Source: Croceitalea dokdonensis DOKDO 023
GTDB lineage: Bacteria; Bacteroidota; Bacteroidia; Flavobacteriales; Flavobacteriaceae
Assembly (NCBI RefSeq): GCF_001306415.1
Contig: NZ_LDJX01000005.1
Span: 124,001 to 188,000 of the forward strand
Reading direction: 5' to 3'
DNA: 64,000 nucleotides
In this document: positions 2 to 27,401 of the stretch, one piece after another
Layout of the letters: each line of letters starts with the position of its first letter
Numbering within the stretch: the first letter of the stretch is position 1
Program-made: the position numbers and the translations under genes
The notes under the pieces: generated by a model
The model's database searches: none
Told to the model about the DNA's origin: nothing
What the model saw: only the letters and a program-made list of their open reading frames with translations

Positions 2-1165
2 GTGGTGATATCCATGATTATTGCAGTGATCTTTATTGCACTGTTTACGGTGGCCTATGGGCGTATTTTTTGTGGATGGATGTGCCCACAGACCATTTTT
101 ATGGAGATGGTCTTTCGTAGGATAGAATATTGGATAGATGGGGACCGTGGCGCACAGATGCGATTGGACAAGGCGCCTTGGAATGCTACCAAGATTAAAA
201 AACGAGCCTTAAAATGGACGGTCTTTTTTATCATCTCCTTCTTTATTTCCAATGTGTTTTTGGCTTACCTGATAGGAAGTGATACGCTTATCCAATATGT
301 GGTTGATGGACCTATGGCACATTTGGGCACCATAGTGCCACTATTGATTTTTACGGCAGTGTTTTATTTTGTATTTGCCTGGTTTAGGGAACAGGTATGC
401 ATCATTGCCTGTCCTTACGGTAGGATGCAGGGAGTGCTGTTGGATGATAAATCCATTGTGGTAAGCTATGACCATAAAAGGGGTGAAGGGGACAGTGGTA
501 GAAAGAAATTCCGAAAGAATGAAGATCGGGACGCCTTGGGGCATGGTGACTGTATTGACTGTTTTCAGTGCGTGAATGTTTGCCCTACGGGCATAGATAT
601 CAGAAATGGGACCCAATTGGAGTGCGTGAACTGTACGGCCTGTATAGATGAGTGTGATGACATCATGGAAAAGATTGACAAGCCCAAGGGGTTGATCAGG
701 TATGCCAGTGAGGATGAAATCAACAATAAATCAAAATTTACCTTTACTGCTCGTATGAAGGGCTATACGGCCGTTTTAATCATACTTACAGGAGTTTTGG
801 TGGCGATGCTCTTCATGAGGAATGAAATTGAAGCCAATATATTTAGGTTGCCGGGGCAGCTGTATGAAAGAAAGGCCGATAACATATTGAGCAATGTATA
901 CACCTATAAACTGGTCAACAAAACTTTTGAGGACATCAATGAAGTCAGTTTTAAACTATTGTCCCACAAAGGGGAAATAAAAATGGTTTCCCAAGATACC
1001 TTTGTGGTACCGGCAGAAGCATTGGCAGAAGGTACGCTGTTCATTGAGATAAACGCATCCGCATTAAACGGTGATAAGGATAAACTGGAAATAGGAGTGT
1101 ATAGTAAAGGTAAGCTTATAGAGAAAACGGTGACCCAGTTTTTGGCACCACGGAGTTATCATTAA
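2..1165 (+). CDS. ccoG: cbb3-type cytochrome c oxidase accessory protein CcoG (partial, N-terminus missing)
   Basis: Membrane iron-sulfur protein of the FixG/RdxA/CcoG family, which assists copper delivery during assembly of the cbb3 high-affinity terminal oxidase. Only 387 residues are visible. The family is usually about 470, and the frame is open to the window edge, so the GTG at base 2 is probably not the start. Seen: CGWMCPQ at about residues 24-30, a second membrane Cys pair (C133...C137P), and two ferredoxin-type 4Fe-4S motifs (C184xxC187xxC190xxxCP and C208xxC211xxC214xxxC218). A last membrane segment at about 255-272 is followed by the periplasmic Ig-like FixG C-terminal domain. The FixH-like gene follows 79 bp downstream on the same strand, as in cco operons. 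The ccoN/O/P genes are expected upstream, outside the window. Confidence 0.93.
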   Translation: MVISMIIAVIFIALFTVAYGRIFCGWMCPQTIFMEMVFRRIEYWIDGDRGAQMRLDKAPWNATKIKKRALKWTVFFIISFFISNVFLAYLIGSDTLIQYVVDGPMAHLGTIVPLLIFTAVFYFVFAWFREQVCIIACPYGRMQGVLLDDKSIVVSYDHKRGEGDSGRKKFRKNEDRDALGHGDCIDCFQCVNVCPTGIDIRNGTQLECVNCTACIDECDDIMEKIDKPKGLIRYASEDEINNKSKFTFTARMKGYTAVLIILTGVLVAMLFMRNEIEANIFRLPGQLYERKADNILSNVYTYKLVNKTFEDINEVSFKLLSHKGEIKMVSQDTFVVPAEALAEGTLFIEINASALNGDKDKLEIGVYSKGKLIEKTVTQFLAPRSYH

Positions 1166-1244
1166 AATAAATTAGAAAAAGCCATAGGACAGGTGTCCAG
1201 TTTTGTATTGGAACTTAAAATAAACAAGGTTAAAAAGCTATAAA

Positions 1245-1691
1245 ATGAAAGTAAATTGGGGAACAGGAATTGTGTTGGCATTTATAGGATTTATCTCCTT
1301 CATTCTTTATTTCGTAGTCCGCATGGGTATGGACGATCGTGCCAACCATGATTTGGTTACGGACAGCTATTACAAAAAAGAGCTTGCCTATCAAGATGAA
1401 ATAGATGCAGAGGCAAATGCCGCGGCCAATAATGCCCAATTAACAATTAAAAAAATGGAGGAGGGCGTTAAGGTCTTTTTTCCAAAGGAATTTAATACAG
1501 ATAAAATCACTGGTAAAGTGTCCCTTTATAGACCGTCGAACAGGCATTTGGATTTTAACTTTCCTATAAGTTTGTCCAAAACACATTTGCTCATACCTGA
1601 CAATCGCCTGCTAGACGGTCGGTGGGACATTACCATTGAATGGAAATACAAGGGTAAAACCTTTCTTCATAAAGAGAAGATAAGTTACTGA
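1245..1691 (+). CDS. ccoH: FixH/CcoH family protein
   Basis: Small single-pass membrane protein (148 aa) of the FixH/CcoH family, needed for cbb3 oxidase assembly or stability. One N-terminal transmembrane helix spans about residues 8-25, followed by a periplasmic domain of beta-strand character. The stretch DSYYKKELAYQDEID at about 41-55 is the typical conserved segment of Bacteroidota FixH proteins, and RWDITIEW lies near the end. The ATG is preceded by an A-rich region and sits 79 bp after ccoG. The position between ccoG and the SafE/UreH-like gene supports the call. Family assignment is by recognition of sequence and context. Confidence 0.85.
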   Translation: MKVNWGTGIVLAFIGFISFILYFVVRMGMDDRANHDLVTDSYYKKELAYQDEIDAEANAAANNAQLTIKKMEEGVKVFFPKEFNTDKITGKVSLYRPSNRHLDFNFPISLSKTHLLIPDNRLLDGRWDITIEWKYKGKTFLHKEKISY

Positions 1692-1817
1692 TTAGGGCTT
1701 GTGCAAAGCAAGATTTTAAACAACTAAATTAGTTTTGTTTGATCTTATGTTGCGTTTGTATCCTTTTTGTGGGAAAACATAAAACAATTTATAAATATTT
1801 AGGATCTGCTTATTCAT

Positions 1818-2540
1818 ATGTTACTATCCGCTCTGGTTTTGGGTACTTTAGGTTCACTGCATTGTTTGGGAATGTGCGGTCCCATTGCTTTTATGTTACC
1901 ATTGGATAGGGAACGCAAGTCCAAAAAGCTATTGCAGTTGGGGATGTACCATGCCGGCCGTTTAGTTTCTTACAGTGTATTGGGTCTTTTGTTTGGCAGT
2001 ATTGGTAAAGGTCTTTACCTCTTTGGTTTTCAGCAAAAGCTATCTATTGTCATGGGACTTCTTATGATTGTGCTGGTATTGGTGCCCGCCGCCCATCTTA
2101 AAAAAATCAATTTGGCAAAACCCATCTATCAACTGATATCAAAAGTGAAATCCAGACTTGGCCAGGCTCTAAAAAAACGAACCCCGGACACGTTTTTGAC
2201 CATAGGTTTCTTGAACGGGTTTTTGCCCTGTGGCCTTGTTTATATGGCCTTGGTTGGGGCCATAGCCTTTGGGACTCCACTAGGGGGTGCACTTTACATG
2301 CTGTTATTTGGATTGGGTACCATACCTTTAATGACTGGTGCCGTAGTTTTTGGTTCCCTTTTTAGGGGGCAGATATCTACCAGGGTAAAAAAGGCCATAC
2401 CGGTTTTCGTGGTCTTGATCGGGGTGCTTTTTATTGTACGCGGATTGGGATTGGGGATTCCCTATGTATCTCCCAAGGCACCGAATGCAACGGAAATAGT
2501 TGCTGCGGATATGGAGTGTCATCAACTGCCAAAGCATTAG
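1818..2540 (+). CDS. sulfite exporter TauE/SafE-type (UreH/DsbD-like) membrane protein
   Basis: Polytopic membrane protein (240 aa, about six helices) of the UreH_2/DsbD-like transmembrane group. It is often annotated as sulfite exporter TauE/SafE family and commonly sits behind ccoG-ccoH in Bacteroidota. Seen: H15-C-x-x-x-C20-G-P in helix 1, and a second repeat with NGFLPCGLVY at about residues 134-143. This is an internal two-fold pattern like DsbD/CcdA/UreH proteins and suggests redox or copper handling. A TAGTTTTG octamer at 1730-1737 could be its own -7 box, though the gene is co-oriented with ccoG-ccoH. The substrate cannot be read from sequence. Copper supply to the cbb3 oxidase is an inference from the neighbours. 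Confidence 0.8.
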   Translation: MLLSALVLGTLGSLHCLGMCGPIAFMLPLDRERKSKKLLQLGMYHAGRLVSYSVLGLLFGSIGKGLYLFGFQQKLSIVMGLLMIVLVLVPAAHLKKINLAKPIYQLISKVKSRLGQALKKRTPDTFLTIGFLNGFLPCGLVYMALVGAIAFGTPLGGALYMLLFGLGTIPLMTGAVVFGSLFRGQISTRVKKAIPVFVVLIGVLFIVRGLGLGIPYVSPKAPNATEIVAADMECHQLPKH

Positions 2541-9799: not shown

Positions 9800-9898
9800 T
9801 GGTATTCCTTTTGATTTCTGCCAGCGTTTACCTTTAGTATAGGTTAGGGGATTTTGGAAATTAGGTCTCATTATTCTTAAAGTCTTTCGTTCTAAAAA

Positions 9899-9943
9899 CA
9901 AACCTATACCCTACTAAACACTATTCCTTACGGGTATCCGTAA
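9899..9943 (-). promoter_or_regulatory. TACGG-palindrome promoter of the CsgG/LpoB-like gene
   Basis: Perfect inverted repeat TTACGG-GTAT-CCGTAA at 9928-9943. Reading on the minus strand, 22 nt separate the proximal CCGTA from TAGGTTTG (9906-9899), an exact match to the Bacteroidota -7 box TAnnTTTG. The palindrome is therefore centred near -41, the usual place of a class II activator. The same palindrome occurs at 10593-10606 and 16227-16242. Confidence 0.7.
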
Positions 9944-11337: not shown

Positions 11338-11346
11338 TTTCCCTTG

Positions 11347-13260: not shown

Positions 13261-13284
13261 AGAAACCTTTATGGTAAATGTATT

Positions 13285-13320
13285 TAAAAAAATCAAATCG
13301 CACCTAAGGGGTGCGATTTG
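13285..13320 (-). terminator. intrinsic terminator behind the 48-aa lipoprotein gene
   Basis: Perfect 11-bp stem CAAATCGCACC / GGTGCGATTTG (13294-13320) with a 5-nt loop. Read on the minus strand it is followed by ATTTTTTT. It separates the small lipoprotein gene from the histidine kinase gene, whose start lies only 34 bp further on. Confidence 0.85.
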
Positions 13321-15240: not shown

Positions 15241-16164
15241 TTATTTAATGGTGTAGGTTTTGGATTTACAGGTCTCCACCTTGAGTTCACCTTTGTCTTT
15301 TAAATATTGTGCATATCTAGTACTATATAAATTTCTTTCACTTCCATTGAATTTCTCTTCGTCCACAAAAACATTCCAATTAGATATAAAAAAAGTTAAA
15401 GGTTCGTTTCCTACTTGATAAATGCATTTTGTTTCTTTGGATTCTAAAATAACTGTTTTTCGTCTTCTCGAGTATAATTGAACATTTTTACTTGGGAAGT
15501 AATAAATCCCAATAATAATCTTTTGAGATGAACTATTTGCAAAGCAAACATCACCTGTAGAAGTTTTTTTGCAGTTTTCATCAACGGTTTCTGGATTATT
15601 TACAGTTTCATTGGAGCTTAATTGGCTATTGAATCCTCTATTGGTTGAGTTACCACCATTAACACTGACCCCTAAATAGGATGCAATATTTTCGTTCAGG
15701 GCAAGATTGCCCATAGAGGCCGCAAACTGAAGGGCAGTTTCGGTATCCAATGCTTTGGCCCTAACCTTAACCACAGAATTTAATACAGTGTATGTTCCTG
15801 TAATAATCACATCTACTGCTACAATTTTTCCAAGTTCTTTAGCGGTGTTTTCATCAATATACCCTTCTGAATTTAATTGGTGCTCTTTTAAAAGAACGTT
15901 CAAATGGTTGCGGTCTATAACCTCAAACTTGTTGCCAAAATTGGTAAGATAAACGGAAAAGTCTTCGGTTATATAGTTGCCCAATGCCGTTTTTTCTCCG
16001 TTTTCGGTGAAGAATCCCCAAACGGCAACTTTTGTTTTTCCCTTACTTTCTATTTTTTTAGAAAGCCCAGCCGCGAGCTGTTCCAGTTGGCTATCAAAAT
16101 CTTGCCCTAAGCTGTGGGAAGCAATAAAAAGTAAAGAAAGGATACATACATTGGAGAATTTCAT
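15241..16164 (-). CDS. CsgG/LpoB-like secreted protein
   Basis: 307-aa exported protein with signal peptide (MKFSNVCILSLLFIASHSLG). A CsgG/FlgO/LpoB-type domain is at about 40-165, with TKVAVWGFFTENG, VIDRNHLNVLLKEH, GYIDENTAKELGK and VDVIITGTYTV, the usual nucleotide-binding-like envelope fold of this superfamily. The rest (about 195-307) is a separate Cys-containing domain that I do not recognise (CKKTSTGDVCFANSSSQ; YQVGNEPLTFFISNW). It shares the DR...LLKE...GY(I/V)DEN...GK signature with the gene at 8825-9799. A TACGG operator stands 63-78 bp upstream of the ATG, so it is likely under the same control. Role: envelope assembly or cell-wall regulation, by family only. Confidence 0.76.
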   Translation of the reverse strand: MKFSNVCILSLLFIASHSLGQDFDSQLEQLAAGLSKKIESKGKTKVAVWGFFTENGEKTALGNYITEDFSVYLTNFGNKFEVIDRNHLNVLLKEHQLNSEGYIDENTAKELGKIVAVDVIITGTYTVLNSVVKVRAKALDTETALQFAASMGNLALNENIASYLGVSVNGGNSTNRGFNSQLSSNETVNNPETVDENCKKTSTGDVCFANSSSQKIIIGIYYFPSKNVQLYSRRRKTVILESKETKCIYQVGNEPLTFFISNWNVFVDEEKFNGSERNLYSTRYAQYLKDKGELKVETCKSKTYTIK

Positions 16165-16371: not shown

Positions 16372-16791
16372 TTAATATTGCGCCAATAAGTAGTTGATGA
16401 GGTCTGTAGTGGTAACAATGCCCACCAAAGTCTCGCCATCCACCACGGGCAGCGCATGAAATTCCTTTTGCGCCAAGAAAGCAGCCACTTCCTGGATGGT
16501 GGCCTGTGGAGCTACGCATATCACATCTTTGACCATCACCTGCTCAATGGTGAACATATTGTAAACCATGGTGTCTACATCTTGTTCGTGTTCATCAATG
16601 GCATCGGCAAAGCTGATGCGCATTAAATCCGTATAACTGAGCATGCCCAATATCTGGTCGCCAGCCGTTACGGGAATATGCCTGATCCTGTTTTTTTTGA
16701 AGAGCTCTTCGGCGGTTACTAAATCATCTTTTGTACTTAGGGTGACCACATTTTTGGTCATTATCTGGGATACTGGAACACGCTTTTTCAT
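16372..16791 (-). CDS. CBS-domain-pair protein
   Basis: 139-aa cytosolic protein consisting of one Bateman module: CBS1 at about 1-62 (VSQIMTKNVVTLSTKDDLVTAEELF...IRHIPVTAGDQILGMLSYTDLM) and CBS2 at about 80-139 (VMVKDVICVAPQATIQEVAAFL...FHALPVVDGETLVGIVTTTDLI). CBS pairs bind adenine nucleotides and report energy or redox state. No effector domain is attached, so it may act on a partner. It has its own promoter with an FNR-like site (16847-16860) and ends at the repeat/terminator. A paralogous CBS pair is fused to the GCS2-like protein at 19690-21531 in the same predicted regulon. Confidence 0.9.
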   Translation of the reverse strand: MKKRVPVSQIMTKNVVTLSTKDDLVTAEELFKKNRIRHIPVTAGDQILGMLSYTDLMRISFADAIDEHEQDVDTMVYNMFTIEQVMVKDVICVAPQATIQEVAAFLAQKEFHALPVVDGETLVGIVTTTDLINYLLAQY

Positions 16792-16816: not shown

Positions 16817-16860
16817 TAAAGATAACTAGCCATACCTGCAATAAACATGATAAAAATCAT
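16817..16860 (-). promoter_or_regulatory. FNR/CRP-like operator and promoter of the CBS gene
   Basis: Minus strand: ATGAT-TTTT-ATCAT (16860-16847), a perfect 5-4-5 palindrome close to the FNR consensus TTGAT-N4-ATCAA. It is followed after exactly 22 nt by TATCTTTA (16824-16817), one base off TAnnTTTG. The -7 box is 26 bp from the ATG. Confidence 0.65.
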
Positions 16861-16892
16861 ATCATCACTAAAAGTTTGTTGGCTTGCTTAAG

Positions 16893-16926
16893 GAAAAAAG
16901 GAGGTGTTTTTAACACCTCCTTTTTT
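16893..16926 (-). terminator. terminator behind the hemN-uspA unit
   Basis: Palindrome AAAAAAGGAGGTGTT / AACACCTCCTTTTTT with a 2-4 nt loop, T-tracts readable in both directions. It is placed about 180 bp after the uspA stop on the minus strand and before the CBS gene's promoter, so it isolates the two units. Confidence 0.8.
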
Positions 16927-17104
16927 AGTATTCAAAACGGGATATCATCCGTACGGCATATCAGTTTGGTAATCATGGATACAGATTTCTAGGGTCACGT
17001 AGCGGGCGGTTTGTATAAAATAGTTTATGTTGCTACTCCATACCCCTAAAACAGTATACCAATGCCCTTTAAGTTTATGACCCTGAAAAGGCCATTATTT
17101 TTCC

Positions 17105-17926
17105 TTATATCTTAAAGGTGATTACCGGTATTTTACTGTGGTTGGCAATGTCTTCACCAATACTTCCCATAAAAAAATGGGCAAGGCCGGTACGGCCATG
17201 TGTTGGTATGCCTATCAAATCCGCACCATTGGTTTCGGCATAGTTTAAAATGCCTTTTTCCACAGTGTAGTCATTATATATGTCCACATCTAGGCTCAAT
17301 CTACCTACATTCATAAACTTGGAGATACGTTTCTGTACGTCTTCCGTGCTTAAGAAGTTATCTGCTGGGGTATTGATAAAGACCATTCTTAGTTTCGCCC
17401 CCAAACGGTCCGCAAATGCGATGGCCTTCTTGGCCGCAGCTATACTTTCTTGTTTAAAATCACAAGCAAAGACAAAGCGTTCTACTTTAAATTGGGCCGT
17501 TTCACCTTTGATGACCAATACGGGAATCACAGAATCACGCACTACGCGTTCCGTATTGGAACCAATAAAGATTTCCTCCAGCCCATCCGCACCGTTGGAA
17601 CCCATGACGATAAGGTCTGCATCGTGTTTTTTGGCCACATCATCCACTTCGCTAAAGACCCTGTAATGTTTGATGATGGGTGTTACCTTAATATCCTTTA
17701 AATAAGGTTTGCTTAGAAAATCGTTAAAGCGTTTTTCGGTAATTTTCATCAGGTGAACAATATGGGCCTGCGGCAGATATTCCGTGTTTCCGGAAATGGC
17801 GGGTGAGAGTTCCAACATATGTAGGACCAACAGTTCTGCCTTGCTCTGTTTGGCTAGTTTTGCCGCTACTTTAAGGGCTATTTCTGATTTAGGGGAAAAG
17901 TCGATAGGTACAATGATATTTTTCAT
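17105..17926 (-). CDS. tandem universal stress protein
   Basis: 273-aa cytosolic protein with two USP domains (about 1-142 and 148-273). The first carries the ATP-binding pattern G-2x-G-9x-G-S (MGSNGADGLEEIFIGSN). The second ends in GRTGLAHFFMGSIGE, also G-9x-G-S. It starts with the typical MKNIIVPIDFSPKSEIAL. The start codon is 18 bp behind hemN's stop, so it is co-transcribed with hemN and falls under the same FNR-like promoter. USPs of this type accumulate on oxygen limitation, energy stress and stationary phase. A second USP gene with an FNR-like promoter is at 24756. Confidence 0.92.
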   Translation of the reverse strand: MKNIIVPIDFSPKSEIALKVAAKLAKQSKAELLVLHMLELSPAISGNTEYLPQAHIVHLMKITEKRFNDFLSKPYLKDIKVTPIIKHYRVFSEVDDVAKKHDADLIVMGSNGADGLEEIFIGSNTERVVRDSVIPVLVIKGETAQFKVERFVFACDFKQESIAAAKKAIAFADRLGAKLRMVFINTPADNFLSTEDVQKRISKFMNVGRLSLDVDIYNDYTVEKGILNYAETNGADLIGIPTHGRTGLAHFFMGSIGEDIANHSKIPVITFKI

Positions 17927-17944
17927 GTTGTTTGGGATTTAATG

Positions 17945-19303
17945 TTATACGGTCATTGAAAAAAGTCTTGTTTCTGGTCGTTTTCGTTGTAATTTTAAGT
18001 CAAACGCCATACTTATATTTCTGATAAAGGGTCTCCCTTTTGGGGTGACCTTAATGCCGTGGGGATTAACGGTCACCAAACCATCCTTTTCCAGTTCGGT
18101 TACCTTGTCCAAGATGTGCTGTGTGTCCAGTCCATTGGTAGGGGTTAACTGCCAATTGGTTTCAAACCTGCACATGAGGTTTAAAATATGCTGGCGGATA
18201 ATTTTGTCCTCTTCATCTAATACATGGCCCCGGTATACGGGAATGATATCATGGGCCACCAAATGTTGGTACTCTTCAATGTTTTTCACATTTTGTGCAA
18301 ATGCGTGCCAACTATCACTGATGCTAGATGCGCCCAAACCAATCATTAGCTTGGTTTTGGAAGCGGTATAGCCCATAAAGTTTCTATGGAGATTGCCGTT
18401 ATTGCTAGCGGTATAAAGACTATCTGTAACCAAGGCAAAATGATCCATGCCAATGTCTATATAACCTAAAGCAGTCAATTGTTGTTTGCCAATTTCATAC
18501 TGTAGTTTTTTGTCCTCTGTCGTTGGTAGATCGGCATCTTTATATCCCCTTTGGCCATTTCCCTTTAACCACGGAACATGGGCGTAACTGTAAAATGCCA
18601 ATCGGTCTGGGCGTAGTTGGTTGGTTCTAGCTATGGTATGCTTTACGTCATCAATGTTTTGAAAAGGTAGTCCGTAAATAATATCGTGCCCCACAGAAGT
18701 ATAGCCAATTTCCCTGGCCCATTTGGTCACGTTTTCCACATTTTTAAAAGGTTGTATGCGGTTAATGGCGCGCTGCACATTTTCATTATAATCTTGTACA
18801 CCAAAGCAGACACGCCTAAATCCAACATCGAACAGGGATTGCAAGTGGTCTTTGGTCGTATTATTAGGGTGGCCCTCAAAGCTAAGTTCCGCATTTTTGG
18901 CCTTATCCGCCAGTTTAAATATCCCATGGATCAGCAGCTGTAGGTTCTTAGGCGAAAAAAAGGTGGGCGTACCACCTCCAAGATGTAGTTCTTTGATGAT
19001 TGGTCTTGTCCCCAATAGGTCTCGGTATAGGGACCATTCTTTTAAAACGGATTTTATATACGGCAGTTCTACCTCGTGTCTTTTGGTAATGCGTTTATGG
19101 CAGCCGCAAAAGGTGCACATGTTCTCACAAAAAGGGAGATGGATGTAAATGCTAATGCCCTCCTCTTTGCTTTCCTGATAACTTTGTTTTACGCTGAGCT
19201 TCCATTTTTTATTGCTAAAACCATCGGTTTCCCAGTAGGGCACCGTTGGATAACTGGTATACCTTGGACCAGGGATATTGTATTTATGGGTTAAACTGCA
19301 CAT
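17945..19303 (-). CDS. hemN: oxygen-independent coproporphyrinogen III oxidase
   Basis: Radical-SAM enzyme (452 aa from the ATG at 19303) that decarboxylates coproporphyrinogen III to protoporphyrinogen IX without O2 in haem synthesis. Seen: substrate segment YNIPGPRYTSYPTVPYW at 9-25, the radical-SAM motif with its extra Cys (HLPFC59-ENMC63-TFC66-GC68), GGGTPTFF, and EGHPNNTT. The C-terminal HemN domain has GLGASSISD. The HemN-specific CxxxCxxCxC separates it from HemW. I chose ATG 19303 (AGAAGG before it) over an earlier in-frame start at 19324, because the family begins MCxLxxKYNxPGPRYTSYP. An FNR-like site is upstream, as expected for an anaerobic haem gene. Confidence 0.95.
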   Translation of the reverse strand: MCSLTHKYNIPGPRYTSYPTVPYWETDGFSNKKWKLSVKQSYQESKEEGISIYIHLPFCENMCTFCGCHKRITKRHEVELPYIKSVLKEWSLYRDLLGTRPIIKELHLGGGTPTFFSPKNLQLLIHGIFKLADKAKNAELSFEGHPNNTTKDHLQSLFDVGFRRVCFGVQDYNENVQRAINRIQPFKNVENVTKWAREIGYTSVGHDIIYGLPFQNIDDVKHTIARTNQLRPDRLAFYSYAHVPWLKGNGQRGYKDADLPTTEDKKLQYEIGKQQLTALGYIDIGMDHFALVTDSLYTASNNGNLHRNFMGYTASKTKLMIGLGASSISDSWHAFAQNVKNIEEYQHLVAHDIIPVYRGHVLDEEDKIIRQHILNLMCRFETNWQLTPTNGLDTQHILDKVTELEKDGLVTVNPHGIKVTPKGRPFIRNISMAFDLKLQRKRPETRLFSMTV

Positions 19304-19321
19304 ACCTTCTAATTGAAGGAA

Positions 19322-19365
19322 CAAAGCTAAAAGATACCGTCCGGTTGAAATATGACAATTGTCAG
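19322..19365 (-). promoter_or_regulatory. FNR/CRP-like operator and promoter of hemN
   Basis: Minus strand: CTGAC-AATT-GTCAT (19365-19352; core TGACAATTGTCA is a perfect 12-bp palindrome), then exactly 22 nt, then TAGCTTTG (19329-19322), a perfect TAnnTTTG -7 box. The ATG of hemN follows 18 bp later. Centre of the palindrome about -41, as for class II FNR activation. Confidence 0.75.
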
Positions 19366-19390
19366 GTATTGGTAATCAATAGGTTTGTGA

Positions 19391-19435
19391 TATGACAATT
19401 GTCATAAAATAAGAGCAGCTTAGCTGCTACATTTG
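19391..19435 (+). promoter_or_regulatory. FNR/CRP-like operator and promoter of the GCS2/CBS gene
   Basis: TATGACAATTGTCATA (19391-19406) is a perfect 16-bp palindrome. On the plus strand its GTCAT (19401-19405) is followed after exactly 22 nt by TACATTTG (19428-19435), a perfect -7 box. The core is identical to the hemN site 40 bp away but faces the other way, so the intergenic region holds two back-to-back activator-dependent promoters. Confidence 0.72.
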
Positions 19436-19689
19436 GGTACATGGCATAAGGTATGCACGACGAGGAATATTCTTGGCAGTTGACCTATGGGATGGGGTTT
19501 GGATTTTTTGTCCTAAACCAATAACATTGATAAAGGCCTTGGCCAATACTGCGGTCTTGGCTCAACACTTTTATGGGGTTGTGCGCAAGATTTCAAGGAC
19601 AAGCTTAACCTACTTTGTCTTAAGGTTAAAACTCAAGTTAATTATAAAACCGGCAAAGGTTGCCTACCCTTGCCCAAAAAGACAACAAA
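19436..19689 (+). other. long 5' leader of the GCS2/CBS-aspA unit
   Basis: About 240 nt lie between the predicted transcription start and the ATG at 19690. A 23-codon frame (19453-19524, MHDEEYSWQL...) with ATG and stop sits in it. No riboswitch class is recognised and no terminator-like stem with a T-run is visible. It may be a leader peptide or simply untranslated. Confidence 0.3.
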
Positions 19690-21531
19690 ATGGGTGAAAT
19701 GATTTTAAACACGGAAACCAATCGGGCGGAGCAACAGCTTTTTATAAAACACTTGGTTGATGATGTAAGGGCATTGGAGTTGCTTTTACAGAACTATACT
19801 TTTGAAGATGATGTCATCCGCATTGGTGCGGAGCAAGAGTTGTGTTTGGTAGATAACAACTATAATCCTGCCGGCGTCAACCTAGAACTGTTAAAGGCCA
19901 TTGACCATAAGCAGTTTACCACGGAATTGGCTAGGTACAATATTGAAATTAACCTAGATCCTTTTGAGTTAACTGGGGATTGTTTTACAAGGGTAGAAAG
20001 TCAGCTACGGGAATTATTGAAAATTGCAGGCAACAAGGCAAAAGAATTGGATATTCATTTGTTGTTAGCTGGTATTCTTCCCACGATATCAAAAAATGAG
20101 GTTTCTTTGGATTATCTCACACCAATACCGCGATACTATGCATTGAATGATGCCTTAGTGGCCAGCAAGGGCGGTGATTTTAAGTTAAAGATACGTGGGG
20201 TGGACGAGCTGTACATAAAGCACAATTCCGTGCTTTTTGAAGCCTGTAACACCAGTTTTCAAATGCATCTGCAAATCCCCTCCCATGACTTTATTTCCAG
20301 CTATAATTGGTCACAGGCCATTGCGGGCCCCGTCCTTTCTGTATGCTGTAACTCGCCCATGTTAATGGGAAGGGAGCTTTGGAAAGAAACTAGGATTGCG
20401 TTGTTTCAACAGAGTTTGGATACCAGAAAATCTGGTTACGTTCTTCATGATCAAGCACCACGCGTGGGATTTGGCACGCGTTGGGAAGAAGGTTCCGTGG
20501 CAGAAATATTTAAAAAAGATATTTCCAAACATCGGGTGTTGCTCACCAAATCCATCAAGGAAGGTTCCATGGACCAGATTAAAAAGGGCCTAGCGCCACA
20601 GCTAGAGGCACTGCGCTTACACAATGGTACCGTGTACCGTTGGAACAGGCCCTGTTATGGCATAGGAGGTGGCAAACCCCATCTAAGGATTGAGAACAGG
20701 TATATTCCTTCCGGGCCTTCCGTCATTGATGAAATGGCCAATTTTGCTTTTTGGGTCGGGTTAATGAAAGGTAGGCCAAAACACTTTGATCATGTGCCGT
20801 CCCAGATGGATTTTAAGGCGGTAAAGACCAATTTTATCAAAGCGGCACGCACCGGCAAGGAAACCATCTTTCAATGGAAAAATGAATTTCTAAGTGCCAA
20901 AAAACTGGTGCTAAAGGAATTATTGCCCATAGCCTACCAGGGTTTGGAAAAGATGCATATTGATTCTGCGGATATAAAAAGACTATTGGGCGTTATTGAA
21001 GCAAGGACAAAGGGTACCTCCGGTGACCAGTGGCAGGTACGCAACTACCGGAAATTGCATAAGGAGTTTAAAACCAATGAATCCCTGCAGCTATTGACCA
21101 AGGCCATCTGCAACAACCAAAAGGATGCAATGCCCATACACCGGTGGGCAGATGTTAAGGTATCAAAGATCAAAGAGCCGGCCAACATAACGGTAAGTGA
21201 CCGGATGACCACCCATTTATTTAAAATGAACGAGAAGGACTATGCAAGCTTGGCATTGGCCATAATGGAATGGAACAACATTAACCATATTCCAATAGAA
21301 AATGACCAGGGACAGTTTACAGGTCTGTTAACATCAAGCTATCTTAAAACCTTGGATATTCCGCTAGAGTCCAGTTTGGTTGGTGCTATTATGGTCAAAG
21401 ATGTACTTACGTTGGGCCCAAATGCAAAATTATCCGAGGCAGCGGCCATAATGCAGTCCAAAGGTATTGGATGCCTACCTATATGTGACCACGGCTCTAT
21501 TATAGGCATTCTCAGTAAAAAAGATCTCTAA
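19690..21531 (+). CDS. glutamate-cysteine-ligase-like (GCS2) protein fused to a CBS pair
   Basis: 613-aa cytosolic protein. Residues about 1-380 form a carboxylate-amine/glutamate-cysteine ligase (GCS2) type domain: IRIGAEQELCLVDNNYNP near 40, INLDPFELTGDCF, HLLLAGILPT, FQMHLQIPSHDF, and GGKPHLRIENRYIPSGPSV near 325-345. A helical region follows, then two CBS motifs at about 500-613 (VSDRMTTHLFKMNEKDYAS; IMVKDVLTLGPNAKLSEAAAIM). Substrates are not evident; GCS2 relatives form gamma-glutamyl-type bonds. A longer frame begins at a TTG (19660), but ATG 19690 is preferred. The aspA-like gene starts three bases after the stop, so the two probably work on one metabolite, with an FNR-like promoter and CBS nucleotide sensing as control. 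Confidence 0.82.
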   Translation: MGEMILNTETNRAEQQLFIKHLVDDVRALELLLQNYTFEDDVIRIGAEQELCLVDNNYNPAGVNLELLKAIDHKQFTTELARYNIEINLDPFELTGDCFTRVESQLRELLKIAGNKAKELDIHLLLAGILPTISKNEVSLDYLTPIPRYYALNDALVASKGGDFKLKIRGVDELYIKHNSVLFEACNTSFQMHLQIPSHDFISSYNWSQAIAGPVLSVCCNSPMLMGRELWKETRIALFQQSLDTRKSGYVLHDQAPRVGFGTRWEEGSVAEIFKKDISKHRVLLTKSIKEGSMDQIKKGLAPQLEALRLHNGTVYRWNRPCYGIGGGKPHLRIENRYIPSGPSVIDEMANFAFWVGLMKGRPKHFDHVPSQMDFKAVKTNFIKAARTGKETIFQWKNEFLSAKKLVLKELLPIAYQGLEKMHIDSADIKRLLGVIEARTKGTSGDQWQVRNYRKLHKEFKTNESLQLLTKAICNNQKDAMPIHRWADVKVSKIKEPANITVSDRMTTHLFKMNEKDYASLALAIMEWNNINHIPIENDQGQFTGLLTSSYLKTLDIPLESSLVGAIMVKDVLTLGPNAKLSEAAAIMQSKGIGCLPICDHGSIIGILSKKDL

Positions 21532-21533
21532 GT

Positions 21534-22727
21534 ATGATAAAAACCCAAGGTTCCATTATAGCGCCTAAGGTACGGCCAAATAGGCTTATCAAGGTCCTAA
21601 AAGGAGCAAAGGATGGACCAACCGTGGTGTTTTTTGGAGGGGTTCATGGAAATGAACCTGCAGGGGTGCAAGCCATTGAAAAGGTTTTAGGAGGGCTACA
21701 ACAAGAACAGGGCAATATCTTTGGCACCGTATATGGCATTGCCGGAAATTTAGCTGCCTTGGAGTTGGGTGTGCGCTATAGGACAGAAGATCTAAACCGT
21801 ATCTGGCAGCAGGAAAGAATTGAGGAAATTAAAAGTCAGGATGCTAGCAAACCACATCATGAAGCGCAAGAACTACGGGAAATTTACGGGCAATTACAGT
21901 TGATTTTAAACACCCATCAACCCCCATTTTACTTTATTGATATCCATACGACCTCCAGTCCTACCAGCCCATTTATTGTGATGAACGATAGTCTGTTGAA
22001 CAGGCGGTTCACAAACCATTACCCCCTGCCAAAGGTGTTGGGGATAGAAGAGTACCTGCATGGCGCCCTTTTGAGTTACATCAATGAATTGGGGTATGTC
22101 TCCTTTGGTTTTGAGAGTGGGCAGCACAATGATCCAAAAGCGGTGGAACATACGGTTCATTTTATGAAGTTCTCCTTGGGACTCGTAGGTTCCCTGCAGG
22201 TAGACAAGGTATGGTTGGCAAAGGAGCGGATGGCTCTGCAAAAAACGTCTGCCATACCAACAACATTTTTTGAAATTACCTACGAGCACCATATCAACCA
22301 GGCAGATAAATTTAAAATGTTACCAGGTTACGTAAATTTTCAAACCGTGGTGCGGGGAGATGAAATTGCGATATATAACGGCAGCACCATCAAGGCAAAA
22401 AAAAGAAATCGTTTATTTATGCCGCTGTACCAAAAGCAGGGTAGTGAGGGCTTTTATTTTATACGACCAATACCCCCATTTTTTCTTTGGCTGTCCAAGC
22501 AGCTTCGGAAGTATAATTTTGACCATATGTTAACCTGGCTCCCGGGCATATCTTGGAAAGACCGGACCAAACGGGGATTGCTCATCAATACCAAAGTGGC
22601 CCGCTTTATGGCCAAGTCCTTTTTTCACCTTTTGGGATACCGGGTACGCAGCAAAGGAAAGCACCAGCTATTACTAAGAAGTAGGGAGGCTGCCTCCAAA
22701 GATGCGCAATACCCCAATAGATGGTAG
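21534..22727 (+). CDS. succinylglutamate desuccinylase/aspartoacylase family protein
   Basis: Zinc carboxypeptidase-like deacylase (397 aa) of the AstE/AspA family. Seen: GGVHGNEPAG at about 35-44 (Zn ligands His and Glu), GNLAALELGVRYRTEDLNR with the DLNR signature near 83-86, and FIDIHTTSSPTSPF near 138 (third ligand His). Members hydrolyse N-acyl amino acids. The C-terminal ~120 residues are a beta-barrel-like extension with a helical end rich in basic residues. The gene starts two bases after the GCS2/CBS stop (TAA GT ATG), implying translational coupling. The combination ligase plus deacylase suggests making and breaking one amide-linked metabolite (inference). Confidence 0.85.
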   Translation: MIKTQGSIIAPKVRPNRLIKVLKGAKDGPTVVFFGGVHGNEPAGVQAIEKVLGGLQQEQGNIFGTVYGIAGNLAALELGVRYRTEDLNRIWQQERIEEIKSQDASKPHHEAQELREIYGQLQLILNTHQPPFYFIDIHTTSSPTSPFIVMNDSLLNRRFTNHYPLPKVLGIEEYLHGALLSYINELGYVSFGFESGQHNDPKAVEHTVHFMKFSLGLVGSLQVDKVWLAKERMALQKTSAIPTTFFEITYEHHINQADKFKMLPGYVNFQTVVRGDEIAIYNGSTIKAKKRNRLFMPLYQKQGSEGFYFIRPIPPFFLWLSKQLRKYNFDHMLTWLPGISWKDRTKRGLLINTKVARFMAKSFFHLLGYRVRSKGKHQLLLRSREAASKDAQYPNRW

Positions 22728-22941
22728 CTGTTGATTCATGGATAACACTGTTACCAGCATTTTAATTAGGTGTTTTGTCGCGATGCAAAGGCAATCACAC
22801 CAGCCGTGGCTATGTAGATATGGCTGGGTGCTAGGCACCTTCTTTTCGCTTTTTTTTGTTTCTCAGTACCGGAATACCAATATGGCAGCTTAGGTTTAAT
22901 CCATCTTATTGCTGATATTCCACAGAATATAAAGGATACAT

Positions 22942-22980
22942 AAAAAAGGACCTGTAGTTTCCTACAAATCCTTTTTTTTT
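22942..22980. terminator. bidirectional terminator between aspA-like gene and tonB
   Basis: Stem AAAAAAGGA-cc-TGTAG / CTACA-aa-TCCTTTTTTTTT with a 4-nt loop. The T9 tract serves the plus-strand aspA unit and the A-tract serves the minus-strand tonB gene. The remaining 22728-22941 holds no recognisable gene; a short stem CAGCC...GGCTG lies near 22800-22830. Confidence 0.8.
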
Positions 22981-22999
22981 GGTCGGGTTGATGTTAGGT

Positions 23000-23728
23000 T
23001 TATGATTGAATGATAAAGTTAATGGGCACACTGTACGCTATCCTTGCTGGTTTACCACGCTGCATGGCGGGCTTCATAGTAGGTAATTTTGATATGATGC
23101 GTTCCGCCTCGCTTTCCAACATTCTATCTGGTCCCCGTTTTTTTATACCGGTAACCTGGCCTTTGGAGTTAATTTCGAACTGGACAAAAACCCTGCCCGT
23201 AATCTGCATTTCAAGCGCAGCTTCCGGATAGTTGAAGTTGGCGCGGATATGCTCTTGGATTTTACTGTTAAAGCAAGCTTTGCGCTCCGCTTCGCTGGAT
23301 AGGCCCTCGCAACCTGGAAATACCGGAGCATTTTCAATAATGGCAAAGGGTACGATGATATCTTCTTCGGCTTCGTCCATGTCCACGCCATCAAGACTAA
23401 TGATATTATCCTCTATATAGGTGTCTTGGCTACTTTCCGTGCTTTCTATGATAGTTTCCTCTACATCTTCTACATCTTCAATGATTTCTATGACCTCCGG
23501 TGCAGATGGCGGTGGTGGAGGAGGTGCGGTGCGTAACATTTCCGTGATGGGCACTTCTTCGTCCATATCGTCCTGCACGTCCAAAACCTGTGCAAAGTCT
23601 TCATTGCTTTCGTAAGATTTATATTCCAACATGGTGTATGTGGTAAAGAGCACTACAGTCAACCCGATAACAAAATACAGGCCACTATTTCGATTTAGAT
23701 CTGCTTTGGGATTTTTTTTGAGTTCCAT
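23000..23728 (-). CDS. energy transducer TonB
   Basis: 242-aa TonB protein that couples the inner-membrane proton motive force to outer-membrane TonB-dependent transporters. Layout: cytoplasmic start MELKKNPKADLNRNSG, one transmembrane helix at about 17-34, a proline-rich stretch PPPPPPSAPEV at about 70-80, acidic periplasmic spacer 80-140, and a C-terminal TonB domain from about 155 (IRANFNYPEAALEMQITGRVFVQFEINSKGQV...SVPINF). A Cys pair (FPGCEGL...KACF) precedes the domain, as often in Bacteroidota. No exbB/exbD adjoins it. An FNR-like promoter is upstream, so this TonB may be an oxygen-limitation-specific copy. Confidence 0.92.
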   Translation of the reverse strand: MELKKNPKADLNRNSGLYFVIGLTVVLFTTYTMLEYKSYESNEDFAQVLDVQDDMDEEVPITEMLRTAPPPPPPSAPEVIEIIEDVEDVEETIIESTESSQDTYIEDNIISLDGVDMDEAEEDIIVPFAIIENAPVFPGCEGLSSEAERKACFNSKIQEHIRANFNYPEAALEMQITGRVFVQFEINSKGQVTGIKKRGPDRMLESEAERIISKLPTMKPAMQRGKPARIAYSVPINFIIQS

Positions 23729-23748
23729 GACGTTTAATTTATTTTGAA

Positions 23749-23792
23749 TAAAATTAGGTGGGAACCTTGATTTAAAACATGATATTTATCAA
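23749..23792 (-). promoter_or_regulatory. FNR/CRP-like operator and promoter of tonB
   Basis: Minus strand: TTGAT-AAAT-ATCAT (23792-23779), only one base from the E. coli FNR consensus TTGAT-N4-ATCAA. Exactly 22 nt later comes TAATTTTA (23756-23749), one mismatch to TAnnTTTG, 20 bp before the ATG. Confidence 0.65.
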
Positions 23793-23831
23793 GTTTTGAA
23801 TTTTAACACTATTTCTTTATCAATTCGATAA

Positions 23832-24563
23832 TTAATCCACTGAGGTCATATCACTGTTTTTGTCCTTGTACAGCTTGGCCTTAAAGAGAAATACCATACG
23901 GATACGGTCAAAGTTATTTTTACCCACATGGTTTTTCATATACCCCAATTCCATTTGGATACTTGGGGATATCTTTCTACCGATACCTGCATAAAACCTA
24001 TTCTGGTTTATTTTGGATTGGTTAAAATCAAAGAAGGGTTCATCAAATACTTTTATATAGAGGTTTTTGGAAACAGGGTAGGTAGCCTGTAGCCGATACC
24101 TAAATCTCATATTGAAAATTTCCGTATGTGGTTTTGTGATCCATCGCTTTTCCAAACGACCCCGGTGTGCCAGTTTTACGCCTAAAAGTTTTTGGTTACG
24201 GCAATATTCCTCATATAACCAAAACTGGGTGGTCAGGCTTTCAAACTCAAAATGGTCAAACGGTTGGGTATCCAAGAAAGCCACCCCCAAGGTAAGTTTG
24301 TTTTTTTTGTTGGGGGCATAGGTGATACCGGTCCTGAAAAAACCAAACTCCGTCTGCTCCGCCAAGTTATAGTAGCGCACAATACCTACGGTTGGCACCT
24401 TCCAATGCTCCCTAAGTTCAAGGTTGCCCGCTATCACTAGCCAAGTGCCGGTAGCATCCCTTAGGTCTTCCTGGGCAACGGCATTTTTTGGTAGTCCGAT
24501 GTATACTAAATGGATAATAACGATTTTGAGGAAGGTGTTCCGTACTAGCGTAATCTGCGTCAT
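23832..24563 (-). CDS. DUF2490-type outer membrane protein
   Basis: 243-aa exported protein (signal peptide to about residue 30, ...KNAVAQ) with the alternating pattern of a small outer-membrane beta-barrel. It fits the DUF2490 family by WLVIAGNLEL near the start, the block LAHRGRLEKRW followed by FNMRFRYRLQATYPV, FDEPFFDF, and NRFYAGIGRKISPSIQMELGYM. Function of the family is unknown. It is often found with oxygen- or stress-controlled genes in Bacteroidota. An FNR-like site is 57-70 bp upstream, and a 6-4-6 inverted repeat (24565-24580) sits immediately before the start codon. Confidence 0.8.
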   Translation of the reverse strand: MTQITLVRNTFLKIVIIHLVYIGLPKNAVAQEDLRDATGTWLVIAGNLELREHWKVPTVGIVRYYNLAEQTEFGFFRTGITYAPNKKNKLTLGVAFLDTQPFDHFEFESLTTQFWLYEEYCRNQKLLGVKLAHRGRLEKRWITKPHTEIFNMRFRYRLQATYPVSKNLYIKVFDEPFFDFNQSKINQNRFYAGIGRKISPSIQMELGYMKNHVGKNNFDRIRMVFLFKAKLYKDKNSDMTSVD

Positions 24564-24564
24564 A

Positions 24565-24580
24565 ACCTAAGATATTAGGT
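24565..24580 (-). promoter_or_regulatory. inverted repeat at the DUF2490 gene start
   Basis: ACCTAA-GATA-TTAGGT, a perfect 6-4-6 palindrome ending one base before the ATG (24563). In RNA it could form a small stem over the ribosome entry site; as DNA it could be a repressor site. No second copy was noticed in the window. Confidence 0.35.
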
Positions 24581-24589
24581 ATTCTTTGG

Positions 24590-24633
24590 CAAAGATCTTC
24601 CAATAACCAAACAGAAAGTATGATAAAAGTCAG
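24590..24633 (-). promoter_or_regulatory. FNR/CRP-like operator and promoter of the DUF2490 gene
   Basis: Minus strand: CTGAC-TTTT-ATCAT (24633-24620), 22 nt, then GATCTTTG (24597-24590), one mismatch to TAnnTTTG. Its half-sites and spacing match the other five sites of the set. Confidence 0.58.
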
Positions 24634-24675
24634 GATAAAGAAAATACTGGTTTTAGCATACTAAAAATCCATTTC

Positions 24676-24719
24676 CTGATATCTGTCATGTTTTTCCTAC
24701 CCAATGCGGTATAATTTTG
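24676..24719 (+). promoter_or_regulatory. FNR/CRP-like operator and promoter of uspA-SLC13
   Basis: Plus strand: CTGAT-ATCT-GTCAT (24676-24689), exactly 22 nt, then TAATTTTG (24712-24719), a perfect -7 box, 37 bp before the ATG at 24756. The half-sites are imperfect relative to each other but each fits TGA(C/T). Confidence 0.62.
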
Positions 24720-24755: not shown

Positions 24756-25544
24756 ATGAGCAACATTAAAAAAATAGTAGTTCCCTTCGATTTTTCTGAA
24801 GCCGGTATAAAGGCGCTGGAATACACCATGAATTTTGTGGGTTATCAGAGGCCAATTAAGATTTTTGCCGTAGAGGTAACCGTGGCTCCCGTTTCTGCGA
24901 AAAGAGAACAGGAATCCCAGCAAGCGTTTACCAAGTTGCTTGCCAAACTGGACAAGCGCACCAAACATAGGCCAGAGTTGATTTTTGCTTCTGGTAACTT
25001 AATAGAAACGGTTTTGTCCTTGCAAATCAACCAACAGTTTGATTTGATCATAATGGGCACCATGGGAGACTCGGAAGAGGATACCATTACCAATACGTCC
25101 CACCTGGTATTGCAGGCAAACTGCCCTGTGATAACCGTTCCATTTAGCACCAAGGCAGAGGTGCCAAAAGAAATTGCACTGGTTCTTGGTAAAGAGGAGA
25201 TAGAATATCCCAACGTATTGTCCACGTTGTTGGATGTTGCGCGGATGTTCAATGCCCGTGTCCACGTATTAACCATATACAAGGAATCCGTTTACAAAGA
25301 AAAAGCCATTGTAGAGTCTAATGAAAATACCTTGGAATATTATCTGGAGCATTTTTATACGGCGCATGATTTTCAAAAGAATGAGGATGTGGAAAAAGGG
25401 ATATTTGATTATATCAAAGAAAAAGAGATTGATATGTTGGCCATTTTACCTAGGAACCATGCAAAAAAAACACAGGCCTCAGATGGCCGTTTGACCAAAC
25501 TTTTAACCCTACATTCCACAGTGCCAGTGCTTACATTGGATTAA
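24756..25544 (+). CDS. universal stress protein (degenerate second domain)
   Basis: 262-aa protein with two USP-like halves. The first (about 1-135) starts KIVVPFDFSEAGIKALEY and has MGTMGDSEEDTITNTS, close to the G-2x-G-9x-G/S-S ATP-binding pattern. The second (about 140-262) has lost the glycine pattern (LPRNHAKKTQASDGRLTKLL), so only one ATP site may remain. The SLC13 permease gene starts 18 bp after its stop, so the USP may regulate that transporter, as other USPs do with channels and transporters. FNR-like promoter upstream. Confidence 0.88.
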   Translation: MSNIKKIVVPFDFSEAGIKALEYTMNFVGYQRPIKIFAVEVTVAPVSAKREQESQQAFTKLLAKLDKRTKHRPELIFASGNLIETVLSLQINQQFDLIIMGTMGDSEEDTITNTSHLVLQANCPVITVPFSTKAEVPKEIALVLGKEEIEYPNVLSTLLDVARMFNARVHVLTIYKESVYKEKAIVESNENTLEYYLEHFYTAHDFQKNEDVEKGIFDYIKEKEIDMLAILPRNHAKKTQASDGRLTKLLTLHSTVPVLTLD

Positions 25545-25562: not shown

Positions 25563-27401
25563 ATGACCATATTACTAAGTATCCTAACCATCACCATCAT
25601 CCTTTTTGTTTGGGGGAAATTACCGCCAGATGTGGTAGCGCTTATGTCCATGATCACCCTATACCTCACCGGAATTTTGGATGTCCAGGAAACCTTAAGT
25701 GGTTTTAGCAATACCACCGTAATTATGATTGCTGCCTTGTTTATTATAGGGGAAGGTTTGGCCAGAACGGGTTGGACGGCGCTGGCAGGGCAGAAATTTG
25801 TGGGCTGGGCAGGTAAGAGCATTCCAAAATTACTGGTGATCGTAACATTGGGCGCCAGTGTGCTTTCCGGTTTTGTGAGCAATACGGGTACTGTGGCGGC
25901 ATTATTGCCCGTGACCGTTTCGGCGGCATGGACGGCCGGTACCTTACCGTCAAAATTGCTTATGCCCGTGGCCTTTGGTTCCAATACCGGTGGCCTCTTA
26001 ACCCTGACCGGTACACCTCCCAACATTATTGCCAGCAATACCTTGGTGGAAAATAATTTTGAAGGGTTTTCCTTCTTTGAATTTGGACTGATTGGCCTAC
26101 CGTTGCTCATCATAGCCATCCTATATTTTAGGTACGTTGGGTACCGTCTGCTCCCCAAAAGGCATACTAATGAACGTCCAGCGGATATTGATGCGGAAAT
26201 GCACAAATGGATAGAAAATTATAGTGTGGGTGACAATATGTATCGCCTTAGGATAAGATCCATGTCTCCATTGCAAAATACCAAGATGGGCCACTGGAAT
26301 TTTGAAAAAGACCACCAAATTTCGGTAATGCGGCTAAAACGCCGCCACCCTAGCATGTTAAAACAGTCTACCCCAGAATTTGTGGAACTGCCAGATAGTG
26401 CTACGGAAATGCGCTATCATGATATCCTTACGGTTAAGGGATCCCCGGAAGCGGTAGATAAATTATCCATGAAATTCAGATTGGGGGTAATCCCTACGCC
26501 CACTGAAAAGGACACCTTAAAAGACGAGTTAATTTCACAAGAAGTGGGTATGGCAGAAATGTTGATTACCCCAAATAGTGCCCTAGTGGGCAAAACCATA
26601 AATCTTGGTAATTACCTGAGGAAAATTGGGGTGCAATTGCTGGCGGCTTCCAGAAAAAACAAGCCCTTGTCCGGTAGAATTCGTATTGAAGCGGGAGATG
26701 CCTTTATCATACGGGGGCCTTGGGATAACATTAGTAACCTAAAGACCCTTTATGAAAACGTACTGATTTCCGGTAGTCCTGAGGCCATGGCAAAGAACGT
26801 GGCCAAATTAAACACCCGAAGCTACATTGCCATGGCAACTTTGGTCTTGATGATAGCCTTGTTGGTCTTTAAGTTATTGCCGGGAGCCATTGCCGCTTTG
26901 GTCTGTGGGGGAATCATGTTGCTCAGTGGTTGTGTGCCCATTTCAAAAGCCTATAAGGGAATTAGTTGGACCAGCGTAGTAATGATCGCGGCCATGATTC
27001 CCATGGGGACGGCCTTGCAAAAAACAGGTGTGGCAGAATTGGCGGCCAACGGACTGGTAGATATGTTGGGCAGTATTAATCCTACAGTTTTGTTGGCAGG
27101 CATTTTTTTACTGACCACCGCTTTTAGCCAAACGATAAATAATTCCGCAACCGCAGTGCTCATGGCACCAATAGCATTGTTGGCAGCTACCACTCTGGGG
27201 GTATCTCCCAAACCATTTTTGATTACCGTGGCCATAAGTGCTTCAACTGCGTTTTTAACCCCTGTTGGCACCACCACCAATGCCATGGTAATGTCTGCCG
27301 GGGGGTATAAATTTTTGGATTATGTAAAAGTGGGAGGCCCATTATTGGTGTTGTTTTTTATTACGACCGTAGCATTGGTACCGCTGATATGGAAATTTTA
27401 G
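25563..27401 (+). CDS. SLC13/DASS-type permease with two TrkA-C (RCK_C) domains
   Basis: 612-aa inner-membrane transporter of the divalent-anion:Na+ symporter (SLC13/CitM/ArsB) superfamily. N-terminal helices carry SNTGTVAALLPVTV and GSNTGGLLTLTGTPPNII (first SNT-type substrate motif). A cytosolic loop at about 210-395 holds two TrkA-C domains (LPDSATEMRYHDILTVKGSPEAVDKL; RIRIEAGDAFIIRGPWDNI). The C-terminal repeat has NNSATAVLMAPIALL and FLTPVGTTTNAMV. The family moves sulfate, phosphate, di- or tricarboxylates, and the substrate is not readable here. It is coupled to uspA (18-bp gap). Confidence 0.9.
   Translation: MTILLSILTITIILFVWGKLPPDVVALMSMITLYLTGILDVQETLSGFSNTTVIMIAALFIIGEGLARTGWTALAGQKFVGWAGKSIPKLLVIVTLGASVLSGFVSNTGTVAALLPVTVSAAWTAGTLPSKLLMPVAFGSNTGGLLTLTGTPPNIIASNTLVENNFEGFSFFEFGLIGLPLLIIAILYFRYVGYRLLPKRHTNERPADIDAEMHKWIENYSVGDNMYRLRIRSMSPLQNTKMGHWNFEKDHQISVMRLKRRHPSMLKQSTPEFVELPDSATEMRYHDILTVKGSPEAVDKLSMKFRLGVIPTPTEKDTLKDELISQEVGMAEMLITPNSALVGKTINLGNYLRKIGVQLLAASRKNKPLSGRIRIEAGDAFIIRGPWDNISNLKTLYENVLISGSPEAMAKNVAKLNTRSYIAMATLVLMIALLVFKLLPGAIAALVCGGIMLLSGCVPISKAYKGISWTSVVMIAAMIPMGTALQKTGVAELAANGLVDMLGSINPTVLLAGIFLLTTAFSQTINNSATAVLMAPIALLAATTLGVSPKPFLITVAISASTAFLTPVGTTTNAMVMSAGGYKFLDYVKVGGPLLVLFFITTVALVPLIWKF

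Follow-up and report, generated by a model that had tools for sequence, protein, structure and literature searches.

A predicted FNR-type class II activator regulon with one operator–promoter spacing in Croceitalea dokdonensis and its relatives

The window analysed here is a 64-kb stretch (C12:124001-188000) of the Croceitalea dokdonensis DOKDO 023 genome, which amounts to 3.88 Mb in 16 contigs. The genes ccoI, ccoS-NO, ccoP, crp1 and crp2 lie just upstream of its start, and the tail of this cbb3 oxidase cluster opens the window with no site of the kind described below of its own in the 64 kb. The palindromic core TGAYN4RTCA has six matches in all in the window, and each is accompanied by an octamer of the form NAnnTTTR exactly 22 nucleotides (nt) past the 14-mer (spacer 22), always on the RTCAT side of the palindrome. 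The octamers correspond to the Bacteroidota sigma-A -7 box TAnnTTTG, perfectly in three of the six and with one or two letters off in the rest. In five cases the gap from octamer to start codon is 18 to 36 nt, the exception being the 19392 site. A first-pass annotation had already proposed these six sites as an oxygen-limitation regulon, and its coordinates, strands, octamers, exact spacing and count of three perfect boxes were all reproduced.

The six sites are real and far beyond chance. At spacers of 0 to 60 other than 22, in either direction, the NAnnTTTR octamer is found at no more than one of the six palindromes. In 100 dinucleotide shuffles of the window, the palindromes averaged 2.76 and the spacer-22 sites 0.03, with a maximum of one. 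This agrees with the earlier claim that the fixed spacing is hard to get by chance, as does the genome-wide excess outside the window.

The whole genome was scanned for TGAYN4RTCA followed after 7 to 37 nt by NANNTTTR. This gave 84 matches, with 15 at spacer 22 versus a mean of 2.3 per other spacer and a highest count of 6. The motif and its 22-nt spacer were set from the same six window sites, which leaves the rest of the genome as the independent test. There, nine matches have spacer 22, where the mean for a spacer is 2.3 (P about 6e-4); two of the nine share one palindrome. Fourteen of the 15 stand upstream of genes and one is intragenic (C1:516662), which differs from the equal numbers that the first-pass annotation had named as counting against its proposal. 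With the strict octamer, 10 of 16 matches at other spacers fall within open reading frames (ORFs) of at least 120 amino acids (aa), versus one of five at spacer 22, and this one is intragenic only because the crp2 ORF was read from an upstream start.

The genome scan, itself suggested in the first-pass annotation, matched both cco genes and a Crp/Fnr gene (Table 1). The divergent crp2 and ccoI have one palindrome in common, flanked in each direction by an octamer at spacer 22. Upstream of crp2 the order is octamer TATCTTTG, TGAC and ATG (L026:13479-13491, equal to C12:117479-117491). The crp2 transcript may be leaderless, since a box at -12 to -5 puts the transcription start on the A of this ATG. 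A scan allowing two mismatches gave 60 matches versus 39 for the backward pattern, and this was too noisy, so the regulon was not extended with it. Its matches with at most one mismatch number 16, two of them intragenic, and the phosphofructokinase gene has a one-mismatch site at C2:56903.

The layout is kept in relatives. Among the matches listed in a 39-genome scan (149, in 17 genomes including this one), 89 are at spacer 22, and each of the other spacers between 17 and 27 has 2 to 11, a tally that leaves out one spacer-22 match of G022. A set of 80 named flavobacterial loci around crp1, 1.51 Mb together, holds 282 palindromes and 240 spacer-22 sites, with at least one such site in 79 of the 80 loci. 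Over spacers 5 to 44 in these loci, the next best is spacer 8, a minor octamer peak of 32 sites, and all others have at most 12.

Gene by gene, the named loci have the spacer-22 site at ccoI in 72 of the 77 with the gene, and at ccoS in 72 of 74 (73 by best match). The universal stress protein (USP) gene matched by the 24756..25544 query has it in 34 of 36 loci, a count that may include cross-matches between USP genes. A second genome set has the site at ccoS-NO in 20/28 genomes and at hemN in 15/22, with zero at eight control spacers. A class-wide sample of 99 genomes has 350 matches to the exact pattern, versus nine to the same pattern read backwards.

The consensus of the 240 sites is AAAA-n-[AC]TGA[CT]-AWWT-[AG]TCAT-n-TTTT, followed by 17 little-conserved bases and the octamer, which is an exact TAnnTTTG in 70 of the 240. 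The FNR half-site is TTGAT. Against the full FNR form TTGAT-N4-ATCAA, the sites keep the TGA core and the N4, while the outer half-site base differs, being A in 0.51, C in 0.45 and T in 0.02 of them (the search fixed the core). CRP and FNR have their class II activator position at -41.5. In Flavobacterium psychrophilum the TAnnTTTG box is placed at -12 to -5 in an excerpt of PMC9723704. With this box and a spacer of 22, the 14-mer would lie at -48 to -35 and its centre at -41.5, the class II position.

A profile search of the genome found three HTH_Crp_2 proteins, with open frames of 216 to 250 aa, and no REC-Crp fusion among these matches. Crp1 (229 aa, C12:116039-116725) lies in the cco cluster, about 7 kb upstream of the window. 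The adjacent crp1 and crp2 stand between a USP gene and ccoI. Crp1 has PF00027 and PF13545 (cNMP-binding and Crp-type HTH) above cut-off, the domains looked for in an FNR protein. Its best PDB sequence matches are 2gau of P. gingivalis and then the FNR of Aliivibrio fischeri, and the structure model of a close relative, L083, also ranks 2gau first with FNR entries in the top ten. The recognition helix of FNR has E, S and R at the positions matching E192, I195 and R196 of Crp1. These three residues of the Crp1 helix, TESAIR, are present in 81/81 sequences. The corresponding helices are PEYIIN in Crp2 and RVVISR in the third protein (C10).

Crp1 follows the oxidase. In the 39 genomes, one of which (G005) is 54% complete, Crp1 occurs in 26 of 28 with cbb3 oxidase and in none of the 11 without (Fisher P 5e-8, kinship uncorrected). 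The 99 class genomes were also sorted by the strength of their Crp1 match, using the E-value exponent (6.2e-60 is strong). The mean number of sites per genome is 5.09 with a strong match (n=46), 2.97 with a middling one (34) and 0.79 with a weak one or none (19).

FNR holds its cluster by C20, C23, C29 and C122. In alignment with the A. fischeri protein, C5, C8 and C107 of Crp1 match three of these cysteines and N14 stands at the fourth (C29), giving Crp1 three of the four. Invariant in 81/81 close relatives are C5, C8, C54 and C107, and no other cysteine occurs between positions 9 and 25 in any of them. A wider Crp1 set has all four in 24/26, with none of them in L078 and an uncertain start codon in L074. 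L078 belongs to G027, one of the 26 genomes with both cbb3 and Crp1. In the class set, which excludes L178 for want of a central match and L163 as the copy from this genome, 25 of 29 have all four. The exceptions are L166 (the same gene as L078) with none, L187 without C54, L188 without three and L189 without one.

In the L083 model, C54 is in strand 51-57 and C107 in strand 104-110, two strands that adjoin in the Crp jelly-roll. The first 20 residues of the chain are poorly modelled (block means 55 and 68). By its conservation and this strand topology, C54 is a candidate ligand. Crp1 probably has a variant iron-sulphur ligand set with one cluster ligand changed from FNR.

Table 1. Operators, octamers and genes of the window (positions counted from its first letter), and spacer-22 sites elsewhere in the genome (contig:position)
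Feature	Position	Strand	Remark
cbb3-cluster tail: ccoG, ccoH, DsbD-type gene	2..2540	+	Pfam
CBS-domain protein gene	16372..16791	-	Pfam CBS
Octamer TATCTTTA	16817..16824	-	22 nt from CBS-gene operator; CBS ATG 25 nt beyond
Operator ATGAT-N4-ATCAT	16847..16860	-	upstream of CBS-domain gene
USP gene	17105..17926	-	downstream of hemN; Pfam Usp
hemN, oxygen-independent coproporphyrinogen III oxidase	17945..19303	-	TIGR00538 above cut-off
Octamer TAGCTTTG	19322..19329	-	of hemN
Operator CTGAC-N4-GTCAT	19352..19365	-	upstream of hemN
Operator ATGAC-N4-GTCAT	19392..19405	+	upstream of GCS2-CBS and aspA genes
Octamer TACATTTG	19428..19435	+	next large ORF about 225 to 255 nt beyond
CBS-domain protein gene	19660..21531	+	Pfam CBS only; GCS2 part named by first-pass annotation
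AstE/AspA-type gene	21534..22727	+	Pfam AstE_AspA_cat
tonB-type gene	23000..23728	-	Pfam TonB_C
Octamer TAATTTTA	23749..23756	-	tonB ATG 20 nt beyond
Operator TTGAT-N4-ATCAT	23779..23792	-	upstream of tonB
DUF2490 gene	23832..24563	-	Pfam DUF2490
Octamer GATCTTTG	24590..24597	-	DUF2490-gene ATG 26 nt beyond
Operator CTGAC-N4-ATCAT	24620..24633	-	upstream of DUF2490 gene
Operator CTGAT-N4-GTCAT	24676..24689	+	upstream of USP-SLC13 genes
Octamer TAATTTTG	24712..24719	+	USP ATG 36 nt beyond
USP gene	24756..25544	+	Pfam Usp
CitMHS/SLC13-type transporter gene	25563..27401	+	Pfam CitMHS, Na_sulph_symp, TrkA_C
Site of USP gene adjoining crp1	C12:115845		spacer 22
Site of crp2	C12:117484		spacer 22
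Site of ccoI	C12:117515		spacer 22; copper ATPase of cbb3 cluster
Site of ccoS-ccoNO	C12:119970		spacer 22; cbb3 oxidase
Site of ppdK	C13:8986		spacer 22; pyruvate phosphate dikinase
Site of pflB	C1:74210		spacer 22; pyruvate formate-lyase
Site of DoxX-type gene	C11:78290		spacer 22
Site of DUF3857 gene	C9:38082		spacer 22

Some gene boundaries in the window deserve comment. The hemN start was set to the ATG at 19303, 18 nt past its octamer, and a TTG-started ORF reaching 19324 was dropped as it begins inside TAGCTTTG. The USP gene behind hemN is probably on the hemN transcript, given the 18-nt gap, and the SLC13-type gene is probably on the transcript of the USP gene before it, given the short gap. 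A 23-codon ORF at 19453-19524 begins 17 nt past the octamer of the 19392 operator. It was rejected as the first gene of this operator, since the divergent ORFs listed in seven relatives, at most 12 per locus, include none like it. Apart from the operators, weak CsgG-type matches at 8825-9901 and 15241-16164 flank kinase-like and response-regulator-like genes (10669-13296).

The operators, their fixed spacing, their targets and conservation and the pairing of regulator with oxidase are read directly from the genomes. Their best explanation, in which we have high confidence, is an FNR-type class II activator regulon. Crp1 would bind ATGAY-N4-RTCAT when oxygen is scarce and, centred at -41.5, would assist the sigma-A polymerase at promoters with a TAnnTTTG box. 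The genes under Crp1 control would serve the cbb3 oxidase and its copper ATPase, oxygen-independent haem synthesis (hemN) and fermentation (pflB and ppdK), and would include crp2 and genes of stress and CBS proteins. We infer Crp1 to be the binder, the activator and the oxygen sensor, with its cluster held by C5, C8, C54 and C107. The oxygen-limitation regulon of the first-pass annotation thus gains support from the cco and crp targets, the layout kept in relatives and the FNR-like regulator in the cco cluster. In F. psychrophilum, oxygen limitation strongly raises the cbb3 oxidase and also haem enzymes (excerpts of PMC9723704); the available main text of this study contains neither 'Crp' nor 'Fnr'.

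Several observations weigh against such a regulon or against Crp1 as its FNR-type reader. The hemN site is absent in 7/22 genomes of the second set, and it is found in 0/5 named loci showing the hemN promoter (0/17 at first, with the promoter outside the stretch in 12 of the 17). The ccoS-NO gene is without a site in 8/28 genomes, and at 7/26 crp1 loci no site of this kind lies within 1.5 kb. One genome, G014, has sites without a close Crp1. The score of Crp1 against the NCBIfam FNR family PRK11161 is 112.2 bits, below the cut-off of 228. A further N-terminal cysteine is present in 20 of 28 class homologues, in an FC pair in 15; it could replace C29 of FNR, so C54 need not be a ligand there. 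Moreover, hypoxia-induced genes are counted in the iron-scarcity response of F. psychrophilum (PMC9723704, same excerpts), an outcome not expected of a simple cluster-dependent activator.

Two of the 39 genomes are described further here. G014 has spacer-22 sites at cbb3 and hemN (L234, L206). The same contig encodes a kinase, a REC-cNMP-HTH_Crp fusion with the helix SETLIR and a USP gene (L082). A further Crp-type match nearby at C24:155436 is a second candidate reader of the sites. G038 (0.3 Mb) has a cbb3 NO gene 60% identical to that of this genome, and no Crp1 match was found in G038 despite this gene.

The iron-scarcity response bears on what is sensed. Crp1 may own these operators and respond to nitric oxide, redox state or iron-sulphur supply instead of oxygen. 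FNR-type clusters also react with nitric oxide (PMC4771820, in the text available), and the rise of hypoxia genes under iron scarcity points the same way. However, the targets are a cbb3 oxidase, an oxygen-independent haem synthesis and pyruvate formate-lyase, and cbb3 goes up under oxygen limitation in the relative F. psychrophilum, so we consider such other signals unlikely. Nor is it probable that Crp2 or the C10 protein is the main binder and Crp1 a secondary one. Crp2 adjoins Crp1, is 32% identical to it and is itself encoded behind a spacer-22 site, making a two-step cascade possible, but the Crp2 helix has no arginine and that of the third protein no glutamate, while Crp1 has both. Furthermore, no second crp is seen in 75/80 named-locus stretches, and the cco operator is kept in 72 of these 75 (counts on the loci, not on whole genomes; a crp2 presence count of 80 was discarded for cross-matching to crp1).

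Repressor operators or ordinary promoter parts, in place of activator sites, appear very improbable. A palindrome overlapping a promoter can also repress, and A/T tracts flank this one. However, one spacing holds over the 240 sites in 80 loci, which argues for contact with the polymerase; -41.5 is the class II place; and the spacer bases past the T tract are not conserved. That the six sites arose by chance or as copies of one repeat can be practically dismissed. The sites at 19352 and 19392 do have the 12-base core TGACAATTGTCA in common, but the spacer sequences are unlike at the six sites, the shuffled windows hardly ever yield one, and the spacing recurs in other genomes.

The predicted FNR-type class II regulon with Crp1 as probable reader is known in kind, widespread in the class and apparently undescribed for this group. 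Flavobacteriia are a major bacterial group of seas and soils, and among the literature matches listed, a partial coverage, none describes an FNR-type regulon in them. More tentatively, at somewhat less than even confidence, we propose a Bacteroidota variant of FNR. Its fourth ligand, which in FNR is C29 of the N-terminal loop, would have shifted to C54 of the beta-roll, next to C107. Its class II regulon would act on TAnnTTTG promoters in a large part of the class, and a kinase with a REC-Crp fusion would take over the same operators in some lineages.

The site, the spacing and the regulator make the oxygen control of high-affinity respiration directly testable in these bacteria, and targets can be predicted by reading the DNA. 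Should C54 prove to be a cluster ligand, the FNR oxygen switch can work with one ligand relocated. The exact geometry, here on a promoter of a different type, would demonstrate that class II activation also works with the Bacteroidota sigma factor.

Among known systems, HcpR of Bacteroidales is a Crp/Fnr protein of the same phylum. Its sites are GTAACnnnnGTTAC, its target is hcp and, unlike Crp1, it has no FNR cysteine motif (PMC1274295, in part). An in-silico study of Flavobacteriales Crp/Fnr homologues under changing oxygen assigned such a protein to carbon sensing, MalR-like (PMC8510549, in part). This differs from the oxygen reading proposed here for Crp1.

The closest likeness is to the FNR of E. 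coli and A. fischeri, in the Crp/Fnr fold, three of the four cluster cysteines and the TGA..TCA core. The likeness extends to class II FNR promoters, by the predicted centre at -41.5 and the targets cbb3, hemN and pfl. In contrast, Crp1 has N14 for C29 and the invariant C54 instead, and scores below the NCBIfam FNR cut-off. Its sites have A or C, hardly T, as the outer half-site base and are set on the Bacteroidota TAnnTTTG promoter. In rhizobia, FixK, FnrN and FixL-FixJ likewise put cbb3 (fixNOQP) under Crp/Fnr control. G014 resembles these circuits by its kinase and REC-Crp fusion near cco, with REC and Crp joined there in one protein.

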